Shown: piece after piece, positions 1 through 11,520 of the stretch
Position numbering within the stretch: position 1 is the stretch's first letter
How the letters are laid out: every line of letters starts with the position of its first letter
IMG/VR virus record: IMGVR_UViG_3300030329_002961
Span: 1-20,075 of that record
DNA length: 20,075 bases
From: a virus
Strand: one strand, 5' to 3'
The notes under the pieces: model-generated
Database searches by the model: none
What the model saw: the letters and a program-made list of their open reading frames with translations, nothing else
Told to the model about the DNA's origin: nothing
Translations under genes and position numbers: made by a program

Positions 1-46
1 ATTCGGATACGGTATGAATCTTGACCTGTTTATGTTTATTTTCCAT
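1..46 (-). CDS. Partial leftward gene, N-terminus only
   Basis: Only the first 15 codons lie in the window; they read MENKHKQVKIHTVSE and continue past the left edge. The start is chosen because the ATG sits directly behind the AAGGAAAC leader shared by all the leftward genes (here with CCAA rather than CTAAA before the ATG, and one base shorter than the others). It is separated from the upstream cysteine-rich gene by a hairpin module. The fragment is charged and hydrophilic; no function can be assigned. Confidence 0.7.
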   Translation of the reverse strand, partial: MENKHKQVKIHTVSE

Positions 47-72
47 TTGGTTTCCTTGGTTTGGTTTGGTTC
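47..72 (-). promoter_or_regulatory. Start-associated leader, copy 1
   Basis: Read on the minus strand, this is two ACCAA units followed by CCAAGGAAACCAA and the ATG. AAGGA is the probable Shine-Dalgarno core. It is one of seven near-identical leaders in the leftward operon, and one of two preceded by a hairpin module and a CCCTT..AAGGG mini-palindrome. Confidence 0.8.
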
Positions 73-83
73 CCTTAAAAGGG

Positions 84-115
84 CCTCAGCCCCTTGCGAA
101 AGCAAGAGGATAAGG
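84..115 (-). ncRNA. Hairpin module A in leftward mRNA
   Basis: On the minus strand, CCTTA pairs with TGAGG and, after one T/C mismatch, CCTCTTGC pairs with GCAAGGGG around a TTTC loop. Two of the pairs are G-U wobbles in minus-strand RNA and would be C/A mismatches in plus-strand RNA, so the element folds best when transcribed leftward. It is flanked by CGCTTGAA (120-127) and CCCTTTTAAGGG (71-82 region), both also present around module B. It could be a weak terminator, a processing site or a translational element; no long U-run follows directly. Confidence 0.5.
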
Positions 116-128
116 GCCGTTCAAGCGG

Positions 129-941
129 TTAGTTATGAGACTTGAAAACAACGATAAGCGATTCGCCTTGAGGATGTTTCGAGACTCTTTCAAGGTCGGA
201 ATCCGAAACATGACCCATGGCATTAAGACGCTTCAATTGTTTAACAGGCGACCACTGGCGAACACACAAGCCGCATTGATTGCAATTAACAGCGCCTTCT
301 GTGGTTTGAGCCAAGCAACCCATGGCGATATTCTTGTCCTCGGTCTCGAAGACTTCACCTTGATAATCGGCTGGTAAAATCGAAACCGGACGCCATCCTT
401 TCCGGATAGCTTTATCGGCCATCTTGAGCGTATAGGTTGAAGCAAGAGCATAGTCTTTCCACTGACTAGCCATGCGATAGCCGGCAACGTAGCACAAAAG
501 ACCCATTCCTCGATTCTTGACGGTTTTAGCTATTCGGTCCGCTTCGGCTTTTGGAATCACTCCGACGTTCCCAATTGCAGAAAGCCGAACCACCCGAGCA
601 GAGCGCCTACTGTTATCCAGAGCGTTATTCAAATGGTACTTAGTGTGCCTTCCTTCACCTTCATCCTTCAGACGCTTGTAAGCCTTCTGAATAGAGCGAA
701 GCGCTTGCCCTACTCGCCCCCGATATGCATAGCATGATTTAAGATTCAAGCGTCCGACCTTGCCGCCTTTTCCGCCATCGCTTTTTGGAATCAGAGGACA
801 TCCGGAAGCTTTACATGAATCCTTGCATTCCTTTTGGGTTTCACCAATCCAGCCCGTCGGGATATTGCCGGTCTTCGTGTTCTGGCTTTCGCTGGTCCAT
901 AAGATTCGGATTGGTGATGGTTTGAATTCCTTGGTTGTCAT
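129..941 (-). CDS. Cysteine-rich phage protein, gp88/DUF7227-like
   Basis: A 270-residue soluble protein. The N-terminal part carries TKTGNIPTG (residues 22-30), then Cys39, Cys43, Cys48 and a SCYAYRG motif with Cys70; Cys150 and Cys209 follow, and the C-terminal third has Cys220, Cys223 and Cys226 (C-x2-C-x2-C). The 'KTGNIPTG ... C ... CPL ... CYA' layout recalls a widespread family of phage proteins annotated as gp88-like or DUF7227, whose function is unknown. The clustered cysteines suggest an iron-sulfur cluster or zinc binding; that is inference. Start codon ATG at 941 follows the shared AAGGAAAC leader. It is the largest gene of the leftward operon, with hairpin modules on both sides. 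The family assignment is from memory of motif layout, not a search. Confidence 0.65.
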   Translation of the reverse strand: MTTKEFKPSPIRILWTSESQNTKTGNIPTGWIGETQKECKDSCKASGCPLIPKSDGGKGGKVGRLNLKSCYAYRGRVGQALRSIQKAYKRLKDEGEGRHTKYHLNNALDNSRRSARVVRLSAIGNVGVIPKAEADRIAKTVKNRGMGLLCYVAGYRMASQWKDYALASTYTLKMADKAIRKGWRPVSILPADYQGEVFETEDKNIAMGCLAQTTEGAVNCNQCGLCVRQWSPVKQLKRLNAMGHVSDSDLERVSKHPQGESLIVVFKSHN

Positions 942-998
942 TACAGTTTCCTTGGTTGGTTTGGTTTGGGTTGGTTTGGTTGGTTTGGTTTGGTTTGT
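942..998 (-). promoter_or_regulatory. Start-associated leader, copy 2 (longest A/C tract)
   Basis: The longest of the seven leaders. On the minus strand, positions 998 down to 952 contain only A and C, as irregular ACCAAACC and ACCAACC units, followed by CCAAGGAAACTGTA and the ATG of the cysteine-rich gene. An A/C-only RNA cannot form internal pairs, so the ribosome site would be kept open. This copy differs from the consensus (CTGTA instead of CTAAA). Confidence 0.8.
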
Positions 999-1014
999 CC
1001 CTTGAAGGGGTCTT

Positions 1015-1040
1015 AAGCCCTCGACCGAAGCCGAGAGCCT
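1015..1040 (-). ncRNA. Hairpin module B in leftward mRNA
   Basis: On the minus strand, AGG-CTCTCGGC pairs with GTCGAGGG-CTT around a UUCG tetraloop closed by C-G, an exceptionally stable loop in RNA. As in module A, several pairs are G-U wobbles in minus-strand RNA and become mismatches in the opposite strand. The flanks CGCTTGAA (1049-1056, containing the TGA stop of the upstream gene) and CCCCTTCAAGGG (999-1010) match those of module A although the stems differ. No U-run follows, which argues against a simple terminator. Confidence 0.55.
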
Positions 1041-1049
1041 CGGAGCCTT

Positions 1050-1358
1050 TCAAGCGATATACTTCTCGTATTGCTTCGCGCAGCTAATCAATTCGGTGAT
1101 AACCTCGCCAGCCGTCGGCCTTGGACAATGCCAGCAACGATTTCCGCGCTTGATGTTAATCATGTCGCAGAACTTATACGAGTAGACGGTAATCACAGGC
1201 TTTTCAGCACCGATAAAAGTATAAGCTTCCAAGGCTGTCATGTCGTCCCATTGGACAAGCTTAAGAGTAAATCCGCGCATCTTAAGGAATTTGGCCTCAC
1301 CTCTAAAGGGCATGTCTCGAGGAAAAGGCGCGTGGATAAACTTTTCGGTGTATTTCAT
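1050..1358 (-). CDS. Hypothetical protein, 102 aa
   Basis: A 102-residue protein of the leftward operon, not recognised. The ATG at 1358 lies directly behind the shared leader (CCAAGGAAACTAAA), which fixes the start. It contains a short CWHCPRP segment near residues 75-81 (two cysteines with a histidine between them) plus two further cysteines; too little to call a metal site. Its TGA stop lies inside the CGCTTGAA flank of hairpin module B, so the end of this gene and the structured element overlap. Confidence 0.75.
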   Translation of the reverse strand: MKYTEKFIHAPFPRDMPFRGEAKFLKMRGFTLKLVQWDDMTALEAYTFIGAEKPVITVYSYKFCDMINIKRGNRCWHCPRPTAGEVITELISCAKQYEKYIA

Positions 1359-1387
1359 TTTAGTTTCCTTGGTTTGGGTTGGTTTGT
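1359..1387 (-). promoter_or_regulatory. Start-associated leader, copy 3
   Basis: On the minus strand: ACAAACCAACCCAAA followed by CCAAGGAAACTAAA and the ATG at 1358. AAGGA is 7 bases from the ATG. Identical in its last 14 bases to copies 4, 5 and 6. Confidence 0.85.
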
Positions 1388-1393
1388 AGTTCT

Positions 1394-1576
1394 TTAATAT
1401 CCAAGCGACCTTAAAAAAAGAATCGACTTGAAAAGTCCCCCTTCAAAATAGACACCATCTACATAAAGGTTTTTAACCTGATAGGTCCGCAAGGAAAGCC
1501 GCAACAAGTAAAAGCCATCCTTTCCCGCGCGGGTTCTAGTGTTTTCTTTTGGTTTGCTCACATAAACTTTTTTCAT
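1394..1576 (-). CDS. Hypothetical small basic protein, 60 aa
   Basis: A 60-residue basic protein beginning MKKVYVSKPKEN and ending RSLGY; not recognised. The frame is open upstream to 1681, but that extension would read through the shared leader and into the neighbouring gene; the leader ATG at 1576 (CCAAGGAAACTAAA then ATG) is the credible start. It follows the 72-residue gene with only the leader between them. Confidence 0.7.
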   Translation of the reverse strand: MKKVYVSKPKENTRTRAGKDGFYLLRLSLRTYQVKNLYVDGVYFEGGLFKSILFLRSLGY

Positions 1577-1601
1577 TTTAGTTTCCTTGGTTTGGGTTGG
1601 T
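1577..1601 (-). promoter_or_regulatory. Start-associated leader, copy 4
   Basis: On the minus strand the stop codon TAA of the upstream gene is fused to the leader: TAA, then ACCAACCCAAA, then CCAAGGAAACTAAA and ATG. It fills the whole space between the two genes. Confidence 0.85.
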
Positions 1602-1820
1602 TTAAAGGCTTTCGATAAGTGAAGTGATAGAAGAGGGAGTCTGAAGAATGGCGATTTGAGTTTCGATAACCTTGTTAGCAAAATGGATAGCGCTATGAAG
1701 GTTCCCGCTTTCAGTGTTGTCCTTAATCAATTGGATAAGGATGTGGCGGTCAGGGTAGTCCTTTCCGAGCTCGGAGATGATAGTTAAAAGTCTTGATAGT
1801 TCTTGGTGCTGCTGGGTCAT
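1602..1820 (-). CDS. Hypothetical helical protein, 72 aa
   Basis: A 72-residue protein (begins MTQQHQELSRLLTIIS, ends SLIESL). Its composition suggests it is mostly alpha-helical with heptad-like spacing of Leu and Ile; no cysteine, no membrane segment. The ATG at 1820 directly follows the shared leader. Function not recognised; position in the leftward operon of small proteins suggests an accessory or early role (inference). Confidence 0.72.
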   Translation of the reverse strand: MTQQHQELSRLLTIISELGKDYPDRHILIQLIKDNTESGNLHSAIHFANKVIETQIAILQTPSSITSLIESL

Positions 1821-1844
1821 TTTAGTTTCCTTGGTTGGTTTGGT
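1821..1844 (-). promoter_or_regulatory. Start-associated leader, copy 5
   Basis: On the minus strand: the TAA of the upstream 31-codon gene, then ACCAAACCAA, then CCAAGGAAACTAAA and ATG at 1820. The whole intergenic space is the leader. Confidence 0.85.
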
Positions 1845-1940
1845 TTAGAAGCAGAAGACGATAGCGATAACGGGAAGAAGGGGAACGAGAGAAAGAGAAA
1901 AGATTGCTATTGCGATTTCAAATCTTGATTGGAAGGTCAT
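1845..1940 (-). CDS. 31-residue hydrophobic membrane peptide
   Basis: A very short gene: ATG at 1938-1940 through TAA at 1845-1847, 31 residues beginning MTFQSRFEIAIAIF and ending AIVFCF. After a short polar N-terminus (residues 1-8) the rest is an uninterrupted hydrophobic stretch rich in Ile, Leu, Val and Phe, long enough for one membrane span. Evidence that it is real: it has the same leader directly before its ATG as its neighbours, and its stop codon is fused to the next leader. It could be a small holin-like, lysis-modulating or superinfection-exclusion peptide; nothing in the sequence distinguishes these. Confidence 0.72.
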   Translation of the reverse strand: MTFQSRFEIAIAIFSLSLVPLLPVIAIVFCF

Positions 1941-1960
1941 TTTAGTTTCCTTGGGTTGGT
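1941..1960 (-). promoter_or_regulatory. Start-associated leader, copy 6 (minimal form)
   Basis: The shortest leader. Between the TAA of the 93-residue gene and the ATG of the small membrane gene there are exactly 20 bases, ACCAACCCAAGGAAACTAAA on the minus strand. This defines the minimal repeated unit. Confidence 0.85.
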
Positions 1961-2242
1961 TTAGTATTCAAGGGTTTGAATCGAAAGCTTGATAGCCATT
2001 AGTTCTTTTTCCGTAAGGACAGAATACGTGTCCAGGTATTCATCGATAAGATAAAACTTAGCTTCGTTGCCGTACTCGTCACCGTGTTCCGTTAGGGTCC
2101 TGTTAAGCTTGACTTGTTCGTGTGCTATGGTCCACAACTTGACGTACAGGGCCCTGGCCTCGTCCTTGGAAAGATAAGGAGATGTATCGACGCATTCGGC
2201 TATCTCGTCCGCTTGCCAGTATTTTAAAAAATCAATGTTCAT
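1961..2242 (-). CDS. Hypothetical acidic protein, 93 aa (first gene of leftward operon)
   Basis: A 93-residue acidic protein beginning MNIDFLKYWQADEIAE and ending SIQTLEY; predicted helical by composition; not recognised. The frame stays open upstream to 2344, but the ATG at 2242 sits behind the shared AAGGAAAC leader and downstream of the predicted promoter start site near 2286, so the longer form would begin upstream of the transcript. It is the first gene read from the leftward promoter and so would be among the earliest products if that promoter is early (inference). Confidence 0.75.
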   Translation of the reverse strand: MNIDFLKYWQADEIAECVDTSPYLSKDEARALYVKLWTIAHEQVKLNRTLTEHGDEYGNEAKFYLIDEYLDTYSVLTEKELMAIKLSIQTLEY

Positions 2243-2286
2243 TTTGGTTTCCTTGGTTAGTTTGGTTTGGTTTGGGCGTTGGCCCC
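2243..2286 (-). promoter_or_regulatory. Leader copy 7 / 5' UTR of leftward operon
   Basis: Predicted 5' UTR from the start site near 2286. It starts with a small hairpin (GGGC, loop CAAC, GCCC; 2274-2285), continues with A/C repeats (CCCAAACCAAACCAAAC, then TAA) and ends CCAAGGAAACCAAA before the ATG. A hairpin at the very 5' end followed by an unpaired A/C tract would favour a stable and well-translated mRNA (inference). Confidence 0.65.
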
Positions 2287-7652: not shown

Positions 7653-8504
7653 ATGGAAAATACGGATAACGCTGAAACGACGGAAGCAGTTGGAACGGAA
7701 GAGACGCCTGATATCAATGAATCCATGGAGGCCGATAATCAATCTGAAGAACAGACTGAAGCATCGGGTGACAAGTATGAAGATGCGATAGAGAGGCTTT
7801 TATCCAAGGCCGAGGCCGAGGACCAGGGCATCGAAGTTGAGCCCGAAACTTTGCGGAAGGGTGAAAGCTGGGACGATATTTATAGTTCTCAGACCCCGGA
7901 GGCGCAGCGTGCGCTTCAGTCTCTTCGGAAAGATTATACGAAGAAGACGCAAGCCATCGCAGAACAAAGAAAGGAGCTTGAGGCTGAACGGGAAAAGCTC
8001 ATGCTCTTGCAGCAGAACCTTACTTCCAGCGAGGGGTATAAGGCCGTAAAGGAGATGGCGGAAGCGGATGCGGGGGAATTCGATCCTTATGATCCTGAGT
8101 CTTTTGGCAAATATGTCGAAAAGTTGGTCGCGCAACGCATTCAAGACGTAATGAAGCCCATGTATGAGGAGCAGGTCCGGACCGAAACAAGGGTCAAGTT
8201 GGACAAGTTCAAGGCTGAAAACCCCGATTTGATGAATGATGAATCGATACGGAACGAGGTCAAGACGCTGCTGATGAACAACAAGGACATGCGTCTGGAA
8301 ACGGCATATTGGGTGGTCAAAGGCCGGAATGCGCGGCAGAGCGAAAAGACAAGAGAGCAGAACAGCGTAAAGCAAAGGCGTGCTGCCAAGGCTGCGGGGC
8401 TGCGTTTAGGCCGTGGGAAAAAAGCCGGAATGACGACGCCGCCAAATGCGAACGAGTTAAGAGCGACCGAAATCTACGATTATTTGCTTGCACAAAAGAA
8501 ATAA
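7653..8504 (+). CDS. Capsid scaffolding protein
   Basis: A 283-residue protein with the typical build of a phage scaffold: a very acidic, disordered N-terminus (residues 1-45), a long coiled coil (about 83-123, KKTQAIAEQRKELEAEREK), an acidic middle region, and a basic C-terminus (about 228-262, rich in Arg and Lys) of the kind that binds capsid protein. It sits directly upstream of the major capsid gene. It would guide procapsid assembly and then leave the head. The ATG has GAGGAAAG immediately before it. The call rests on architecture and position, not on a sequence motif. Confidence 0.8.
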   Translation: MENTDNAETTEAVGTEETPDINESMEADNQSEEQTEASGDKYEDAIERLLSKAEAEDQGIEVEPETLRKGESWDDIYSSQTPEAQRALQSLRKDYTKKTQAIAEQRKELEAEREKLMLLQQNLTSSEGYKAVKEMAEADAGEFDPYDPESFGKYVEKLVAQRIQDVMKPMYEEQVRTETRVKLDKFKAENPDLMNDESIRNEVKTLLMNNKDMRLETAYWVVKGRNARQSEKTREQNSVKQRRAAKAAGLRLGRGKKAGMTTPPNANELRATEIYDYLLAQKK

Positions 8505-8616
8505 CCCATGCTATAACAAAAATGACCAAAGGACTCCTATTGGAATACGCCTAACGTCGGGAACCCATACGGGCACGCTCTAACAGACTGGAATTTATAA
8601 TCTTTTAGAGGCAGAC
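8505..8616 (+). promoter_or_regulatory. Capsid-gene leader region with possible -10
   Basis: A 112-base gap before the major capsid gene, the second longest plus-strand gap in a tightly packed operon. It contains a hairpin (CCAAAGG, loop ACT, CCT-A-TTGG; 8526-8543), a perfect TATAAT (8596-8601) without a recognisable -35, and the capsid ribosome site AGAGG six bases before the ATG. It could be a separate promoter or a 5' stabilising leader. Confidence 0.35.
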
Positions 8617-9637: not shown

Positions 9638-10141
9638 ATGGCTACAGCTACTACATTACAACTTTTGGATTCTGTTGCCGGTGATGGTACTACCTCCTTG
9701 GGGATCACTCCATCCAATCGTCGGCAGATTGAAACGTACCTTGCTGGTGAAACTGTTGCTATTGGCGACGTTGTTGCGTTTGACTATTCCAATGCAGATG
9801 ATGGCAAAAAGACGCTTTATGTTAAAAAAGCAAGTAAGGCTGCTGCTAAAAGAAATGCTATCGGCGTTGTGTTGGCTGCGGCATCCAGTGAAGGGTCTTT
9901 GACAATTCATTCCCCTATTCGGGTGGTTATCGGTGGAGTCATTTCGGCAAAAGTCGAAGGTAAAGATCACGCTGGTAATTCGGCTATTGCGGTTGGAGAT
10001 ATTCTTTGCGCCGGAAATGTCGATGGTGTTTTTATGAACAAGGTCCAAGCAACCGAATTGCCTTCGGCTATTGCACTTGAAACTGTTCTCAGCGGTGCTG
10101 GCGCGGCTTTGAAAAAGGTTCTTGTTTTGCGAAACGCATAA
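9638..10141 (+). CDS. Head decoration / capsid-stabilising protein
   Basis: A 167-residue beta-rich protein starting one base after the capsid stop, with GGAGAGG as ribosome site. The frame is open upstream within the capsid gene, but the ATG at 9638 is the sensible start. The layout 'AGETVAIGDVVAFD ... KASKAAAKRNAIGVVLAAASSEG ... VVIGGVISAKVEG ... AIAVGDILCAG' matches small decoration proteins of the DUF2190 type, which cement the capsid surface. Repeated G-D-V and G-V-V turns support a beta-barrel. The function is inferred from this pattern and its place directly after the capsid gene. Confidence 0.75.
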   Translation: MATATTLQLLDSVAGDGTTSLGITPSNRRQIETYLAGETVAIGDVVAFDYSNADDGKKTLYVKKASKAAAKRNAIGVVLAAASSEGSLTIHSPIRVVIGGVISAKVEGKDHAGNSAIAVGDILCAGNVDGVFMNKVQATELPSAIALETVLSGAGAALKKVLVLRNA

Positions 10142-10236: not shown

Positions 10237-11520
10237 GTGAAGCTGATTGAAATCAGGAACTACATAAACAATATCGTTGATTATGCGCCAGACGTGGAAT
10301 CATACGATGAGCAGTTGAATTCGATCATTAACGATTGCTATGGACGGTTGTTTGCTGAAAAACCGTTCACGTTCGCTTCGAAAGAGGTCGTGATAAAGGC
10401 CAGAGCGGATGTAAGCATCACGAAGCTGGTGGCTACAAATGGAAGCACAGCAATCACTACGGTGGACAATCTGTTCAACGATACCATGGCTGGGCAAATT
10501 ATAGCCATACATGATGTGGAATATACGATCGCCTATGTGGCGACAGCGGGATCTGCCATTATTACGGAGCCATATATTGCAGCTACATCGACTTCGACGG
10601 CAACGGTACGGTATAGATATCTGGATTGCCCCGCCGATACGATTTCGATTTTGCAAGTTATCAAAAGAACAATGCAGCTCACCCCGCAAGAGCCCGGTCG
10701 AATGATTCCATTGACGCGGATGGAGGATGAATATTACAACTTGCCGTTGAATGAGGTGAATCTTCCAAATTATTGGGTTCCATACGATGACTTTACGGTC
10801 AATCCACCGCGTTATCCGATAGCTGCGCCAGTTGCTTCTGCGGCTGGACAAGGTGAACGTACAGTAGATGTGGCAATGACTTACGTTTATGCTGGCCGTG
10901 AAAGCGCATTAAGCAAAAGCGTAACTTTAGAGTTAGCAGACAACCAGCAATGCCAAGTCACCTTTGCAGATATAACATTCATGTCAGGTATGCGTAGACG
11001 CATTTATGCCCGAAATAAAATAGCTGGCTGGGATGCTTTCCGATTAATGAAAACTGTAGTAGGTTCAAAAACTGAAATAGACCCAGCGCCAGCAGTTACA
11101 GAAACTTACGCAATGAATGATTTTGATGCAAGTTTTGAATTCCAATCTGTTAGACACGATTCAAGCGATGGCCTGACACAAAGGTTTCGATTGTATCCCC
11201 GGCAATCGGAAGACACGGATATAACCGTCAGATATATGTACAATCCGCCGGCATTGATTGAGGATAACGACACACCGGAGTTTCCAGCGGCGCATCACGC
11301 AATATTGGCTTACATGGCATTGCACGAAATTTACATTAAGCTGGACAACATCCCGCAAGCAAACATCTACCAGCGAAAAGCAGCTCAAGAGATGCTGAAA
11401 ATGGAGCAGAGATATCTGACTCAAGTCCCAAGGCGATGGATCAAGAGGGGGATGCGGGATGGAACTGAAGATCCGCTGCCCATTTATTCGCCACTAATGA
11501 ACACGAACCAATACCCATGA
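10237..11520 (+). CDS. Podovirus adaptor (head-to-tail connector) with inserted beta domain
   Basis: A 427-residue protein, more than twice the length of T7 gp11-type adaptors. The N-terminus (residues 1-50, RNYINNIVDYAPD ... INDCYGRLFAEKPFTFA) and the C-terminal helices (about 345-405, HHAILAYMALHEIYIK) are the expected helical connector core that rings the portal. Residues 55-130 form one beta-rich insertion. Residues 205-315 look like a fibronectin/Ig-like domain (TYVYAGRESALS ... RRRIYAR) and are encoded with unlike codons. The start is GTG at 10237, with AGGGGG directly upstream. It overlaps the next gene as ATGA. Confidence 0.7.
   Translation: MKLIEIRNYINNIVDYAPDVESYDEQLNSIINDCYGRLFAEKPFTFASKEVVIKARADVSITKLVATNGSTAITTVDNLFNDTMAGQIIAIHDVEYTIAYVATAGSAIITEPYIAATSTSTATVRYRYLDCPADTISILQVIKRTMQLTPQEPGRMIPLTRMEDEYYNLPLNEVNLPNYWVPYDDFTVNPPRYPIAAPVASAAGQGERTVDVAMTYVYAGRESALSKSVTLELADNQQCQVTFADITFMSGMRRRIYARNKIAGWDAFRLMKTVVGSKTEIDPAPAVTETYAMNDFDASFEFQSVRHDSSDGLTQRFRLYPRQSEDTDITVRYMYNPPALIEDNDTPEFPAAHHAILAYMALHEIYIKLDNIPQANIYQRKAAQEMLKMEQRYLTQVPRRWIKRGMRDGTEDPLPIYSPLMNTNQYP

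Follow-up and report, generated by a model that had tools for sequence, protein, structure and literature searches.

The virus record IMGVR_UViG_3300030329_002961 (20,075 bases, referred to here as the window) consists of a leftward operon at positions 1-2276 and a rightward structural module that holds the terminase, the portal and the major head protein. We found that all seven leftward genes, whose ATGs lie at 2242, 1940, 1820, 1576, 1358, 941 and 46, start directly 3' of a leader formed by a tract of A and C only followed by CCAAGGAAACTAAA or a near copy of it. The nearest relative, L031/L032 (11,838 bases), has a terminase 98% identical to that of the window and the same layout. The features of the leftward operon are as follows (percentages are identities with the L031 ortholog; aa, amino acids; nt, nucleotides).

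2243-2276, minus strand: leader of gene 1 (CCCAAACCAAACCAAACTAACC followed by AAGGAAACCAAA)
1961-2242, minus strand: gene 1, 93 aa, no family match, without ortholog in L031
1941-1962, minus strand: leader of gene 2, exact copy, fused with the TAA of gene 1
1845-1940, minus strand: gene 2, hydrophobic peptide of 31 aa; L031 ortholog of 36 aa, 55%
1821-1846, minus strand: leader of gene 3, exact copy, fused with the TAA of gene 2
1602-1820, minus strand: gene 3, 72 aa; L031 ortholog 54%
1577-1603, minus strand: leader of gene 4, exact copy, fused with the TAA of gene 3
1394-1576, minus strand: gene 4, 60 aa, without ortholog in L031
1359-1387, minus strand: leader of gene 5, exact copy
1050-1358, minus strand: gene 5, 102 aa; L031 ortholog 91%
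999-1040, minus strand: two stem-loops 3' of gene 5, adjoining the A/C tract of gene 6; L031 equivalent at 8416-8511
942-998, minus strand: leader of gene 6, A/C tract of 47 nt followed by AAGGAAACTGTA
129-941, minus strand: gene 6, 270 aa, DUF7227 / phrog_2554; L031 ortholog 94%
72-128, minus strand: stem-loops 3' of gene 6, z -3.06; L031 equivalent at 9693-9783, z -3.16
47-71, minus strand: leader of gene 7, spacer shorter by one base
1-46, minus strand: gene 7, first 15 codons only, cut by the record end

The last 12 nt upstream of the ATG are AAGGAAACTAAA at 1940, 1820, 1576 and 1358, AAGGAAACCAAA at 2242 and AAGGAAACTGTA at 941, and the leader at 46 ends in AAGGAAACCAA, one base shorter. 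An earlier reading made from the sequence alone had described seven identical leaders; a leader is indeed present at each of the seven genes, but their identity was overstated, since four copies are exact in the last 12 nt and three carry one or two base differences or a one-base change in spacing. The coordinates, sequences and other features claimed in that sequence-only reading agreed with our measurements. The A/C-only tracts are 6, 12, 16, 17, 19, 47 and 16 nt long (claimed, 6 to about 47), the 6-nt tract being a longer one interrupted by a single T, and the TAA of the preceding gene is fused to the tract at exactly three junctions (genes 1/2, 2/3 and 3/4). The leader was found at none of the plus-strand (late) gene starts examined, and the combined pattern of A/C run, Shine-Dalgarno (SD) sequence, start codon and open reading frame (ORF) occurred seven times on the minus strand versus zero on the plus strand. 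Eight near matches to a 14-mer were detected in the window, a number reached in none of 100 shuffles, and the operon contains six A/C runs of at least 15 nt (shuffle mean 0.26, maximum 3).

The sequence-only reading implied that related phages would keep the leader at the same genes, and the orthologs of genes 2, 3, 5 and 6 in L031 bear this out in four of four cases; most genes private to L031 also carry a leader. The 31-codon gene 2 is a real gene, because its 36-codon ortholog in L031 has its own leader. The main internal leaders are AAGGAAACTACA in L031 (five copies) and AAGGAAACTAAA in the window (four copies), and the motif in which they differ is AAACTACA in 5/5 copies of L031 versus AAACTAAA in 4/4 copies of the window, genes private to either phage included; the chance of such a perfect split of nine copies is 1 in 126, for copies that were chosen post hoc. 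Since the split holds for orthologs and private genes alike, the leader variant follows the genome and not the gene, indicating that, as far as sequence can tell, the leader copies are homogenised within each phage. In both phages, gene 6 and the first gene are preceded by looser copies, as are the L031 genes at 8510, 9781 and beyond; farther on in L031, the genes at 9972, 10060 and 10750 are without a leader. At 10500-10522 of L031, a leader copy (AAACCAAACCAAGGAGAAAACG) lies within the coding sequence of a RusA-like resolvase, before an overlapping gene at 10523, and there the leader seems to be retained even where it is also coding.

DNA similarity between the window and L031 is arranged in blocks (1962-1848, 1846-1570, 1386-956 and 972-56), the ends of which lie in leaders or a few bases away. 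The blocks 1386-956 and 972-56 join inside one window leader, where L031 has an insertion of an extra leader and a 113-aa gene with a GTG at 8510. A single gene separates genes 3 and 5 in the window, compared with three in L031, each of them with a leader, and the tract length varies at orthologs (window versus L031, 47 versus 22 nt at gene 6 and 19 versus 31 nt at gene 5). The proposal that the repeats promote gene shuffling by recombination is thus supported by the leader-to-leader homology blocks and the inserted leader and gene unit. The stem-loops after genes 5 and 6 have kept their positions in L031 with both sides of the stems changed in a paired manner; at these junctions, the stem-loop is tied to the gene before it and the leader to the gene after it. 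No T-run follows 3' of the stem-loops at 72-128 and 999-1040, so they are not plain terminators and are possibly sites of 3'-end protection or processing.

To survey the leader more widely, we used a family set of 26 contigs, comprising 20 longer relatives with terminases 52-70% identical and six shorter ones, and a pattern of an A/C run of at least 10 nt, an SD, a start codon and an ORF of at least 30 codons. The early strand was defined as that opposite the terminase and the late strand as that of the terminase; the contrast between them was taken from the direct pattern count, a gene-caller comparison being noisy, with small genes missed. The pattern was found 65 times on the early strand versus twice on the late strand (Wilcoxon p = 1.8e-4), and dinucleotide shuffles of the family contigs gave 0-0.8 matches each. 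Unrelated IMG/VR contigs contained six A/C leaders in 223 kb, a rate above zero, and for this reason the strand contrast within the family is the better control. The repeat unit is ACCAAACC in the lineage of the window, ACACAAC in G005/G006/L043 and AACAACTAACC in G015/G016/L058, and in G012/G013 ATCTACA follows a small hairpin. Common to the family are the A/C composition, the absence of G and the position; the sequence is not kept. In G012/G013 (L050, L055), the early-strand leaders, for example at 749-2501 of G013 in oriented coordinates, are composed of a terminator-like GC stem, CTTTTAA and a small stem (for example AACTC-TATTT-GAGT or GTTC-TATTT-CGAAC), both sides of which differ from copy to copy, followed by ATCTACAATCTACA and AAAGGATAAAACT and then the ATG.

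When folded alone, the leaders showed almost no predicted structure. The predicted energy for opening the start region was on average 3.7 kcal/mol, versus 8.7 kcal/mol for the late starts in the window, and it rose to a mean of 6.1 kcal/mol when random genomic sequence was swapped in upstream of the SD. In all 15 genes tested, the opening energy was below the mean of the gene's own random-upstream set. In Salmonella, position-tolerant C/A-rich elements lying 5' of SDs have been proven to enhance translation (PMC3879156), and A-rich upstream sequence favours initiation in E. coli (PMC7043885). Because of the low opening energy and these known enhancers, we favour a structure-insulating landing strip coupled to an SD; the unstructured ribosome-landing role put forward from the sequence alone thus gains support from prediction and from the family-wide keeping of A and C without G. 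Taken together, the leader is probably a standardised, structure-insulated module of translation initiation that is homogenised by recombination and marks cassette junctions. Each leader would act on a polycistronic mRNA transcribed from the leftward operon (non-structural and presumably early) and has the order unstructured A/C-only tract, AAGGA SD core, A-rich spacer of a nearly fixed 7 nt, and ATG. The tract would shield the start site against base pairing with any sequence upstream of it and may offer a binding place for the 30S subunit, possibly via protein S1, so that any gene behind a leader would initiate well. Recombination or copying between the leaders would keep them alike within a phage, and the repeats could serve as junctions for the gain, loss and replacement of leader and gene cassettes. 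Among these steps, we infer the effect on translation, the contact with S1, the early timing and the route of recombination.

Several observations weigh against this module interpretation. Some family members, especially those near 60% G+C, have few or no leaders. The low predicted structure is partly due to composition alone, and the window unit is almost without ACA, the enhancer element that has been tested: the window tracts hold one ACA each at 1358 and 941 only, and the sister lineages hold many. Homogenisation is based on a single pair of phages, and the copies are less uniform in G005/G006/L043. Joints in phage mosaics are frequently at gene ends, so that recombination through the leaders is supported but not proven.

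Another interpretation is that a translational regulator of phage or host, such as a RegA-, CsrA- or Hfq-like protein or a small RNA (sRNA), recognises the leader by its sequence and switches the whole operon at once. The copies, spacer included, are more alike than a ribosome-binding site (RBS) requires, and lineage-specific units could co-evolve with such a regulator. Furthermore, the core of CsrA sites is CARGGA, which is fitted by the CCAAGGA of the leader. However, homogenisation alone accounts for the likeness of the copies, the CARGGA core is not retained in sister clades, where AAAGGA is often found, the GGA of the leaders is not presented in a hairpin, and no regulator gene was identified. 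The sequence-only reading had also suggested that a phage regulator might bind the leader; no positive evidence for this was obtained, and the turnover of the unit between lineages under a constant composition is contrary to one fixed site. An Hfq (ARN) site was rejected because AAN triplets do not stay in register in the window unit. Since composition is kept while the unit drifts, the landing strip is favoured over a fixed binding site, and we regard the regulator explanation as unlikely. Also rather unlikely is a family-wide cassette system, in which leader and gene units would plug into the early operon at mutually similar A/C leaders kept alike by recombination. An incoming gene would thereby acquire the translation signal of the resident phage, and a phage factor that co-evolves with the unit of each lineage, and is specific to it, might read this signal.

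If the leader were mainly a recombination device, a linker or boundary that moves small genes between phages and carries the RBS along, the leader-bounded homology blocks, the inserted leader and gene unit and the variable tract length at orthologs would be expected, and boundary sequences have been proposed in other phages. Recombination, however, needs neither strict placement at the start codon nor absence of G nor low structure, and sister lineages keep composition but not sequence, which would break the homology between lineages; this explanation appears quite improbable. C-rich, G-free and unstructured RNA ahead of each gene could also load Rho, giving polarity on untranslated genes. The tracts are short (6-47 nt), their C content is lower in sister lineages, they would be covered by ribosomes initiating a few bases downstream, and their fixed spacing to the ATG is left unexplained, making Rho loading very improbable. 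We give still less credence to an action of the tract as DNA, for example as a G-quadruplex or a protein site: the longest tract reads (GGTTTGG)n on the plus strand, but the corresponding strand of sister clades carries GTTGTGTTGTG and lacks GG runs, and the leaders keep a fixed distance to the ATG.

Start-associated sequences (SASs) have been reported from scattered phages without an agreed function. The sequence-only reading named those of cluster K mycobacteriophages as the nearest parallel, a fair analogy, but the 26-bp start-associated repeat CCAACAATCCTAAACTGGAGAATCTA of Felix O1-like phages (Citrobacter phage Mordin, Ounavirinae; PMC4611695) is nearer. Like the window leaders, it begins with a C/A-rich stretch and continues through an SD and an A-rich spacer to the ATG of many small hypothetical genes on one strand, and several copies lie 3' of a GC-rich stem, as here. 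The two differ in that the Mordin repeat is unique in sequence, of fixed length, contains T and has the SD GGAG, whereas here a low-complexity, variable A/C tract is followed by AAGGA; the window leaders do not match its consensus and show no sequence kinship. In cluster K, the 13-bp SAS is GGGATAGGAGCCC, and the consensus of the extended SAS (ESAS) varies between subclusters (PMC3203893). Shared with cluster K is an SD-containing repeat a few bases from the start codon of non-structural genes in one orientation (in the window, 7/7 leftward genes and none on the structural strand). The window leaders do not have the 13-bp consensus, however, and the 17-bp imperfect inverted repeats found upstream of about half of the cluster K copies are lacking, the stem-loops before two leaders belonging to genes 5 and 6. 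Cluster K copies are mostly in intergenic gaps of more than 50 bp, whereas here there is often no gap, 3/7 leaders being fused to the upstream stop. Microbacterium cluster EF phages have ten copies of an SAS motif, GGGAAAGGACCCC, which is likewise conserved at the RBS position (PMC7302621) but differs in sequence and length. Since the leaders belong by sequence to none of the cluster K, EF and Mordin systems, they are a separate variant. The ACA enhancers (yifK, dppA) are also C/A-rich, upstream of SDs and position-tolerant, but act on single chromosomal genes that are sRNA targets, and ACA trinucleotides upstream of the SD are almost absent from the window unit. Lambdoid boundary (linker) sequences, also short and conserved, occupy gene junctions and have been proposed as sites of recombination; here, one repeated sequence stands at every operon junction and doubles as RBS. 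The kind of element is thus already known, and, going by its sequence, the leader is a distinct, low-complexity, variable-length and G-free variant, of which the two close phages each have a consensus of their own. No earlier report of such A/C leaders, only SAS papers, was found in the literature searched, which covered few subscription journals. Across the whole family, the features that are kept, namely the lack of G, the lack of structure and the position of the SD, can be told apart from the repeat unit, which drifts. A private consensus in each phage resembles concerted evolution of translation signals, and it suggests a route by which small phage genes could be exchanged with immediate expression.

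Beyond the family, exact matches to a 17-mer were present in 24 IMG/VR contigs; with a single copy per contig and in most cases no A/C tract, they look like chance matches. Searching with CCAAMCCAAGGAAANNNNATG returned 51 contigs, each matched once, among which L031 was the sole known relative of the window. In the phage collection there was no nucleotide match to the window, and the best terminase match had about 27% identity; in the genome contigs, the only terminase relative was on one 3,972-base contig of a metagenome-assembled genome, with 49% identity, which is untrustworthy for assigning a host. No Rfam match at gathering score was obtained in the window, L031, L114 or L115, and no tRNA was found. 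The protein of gene 6 (129-941, minus strand) has several Cys motifs, and its matches to DUF7227 and phrog_2554 are weak. A group of phages not known to be related to the window (L163 3161-4960, minus strand; L160 4370-5860, plus strand; L154 3740-4090, plus strand) has its own repeated block at the starts of four or five consecutive genes. This block, AAACAGCGCGTT(A/C)(C/A)T..., precedes an A/C-rich linker, an SD and the ATG, and it looks like another start-associated system.

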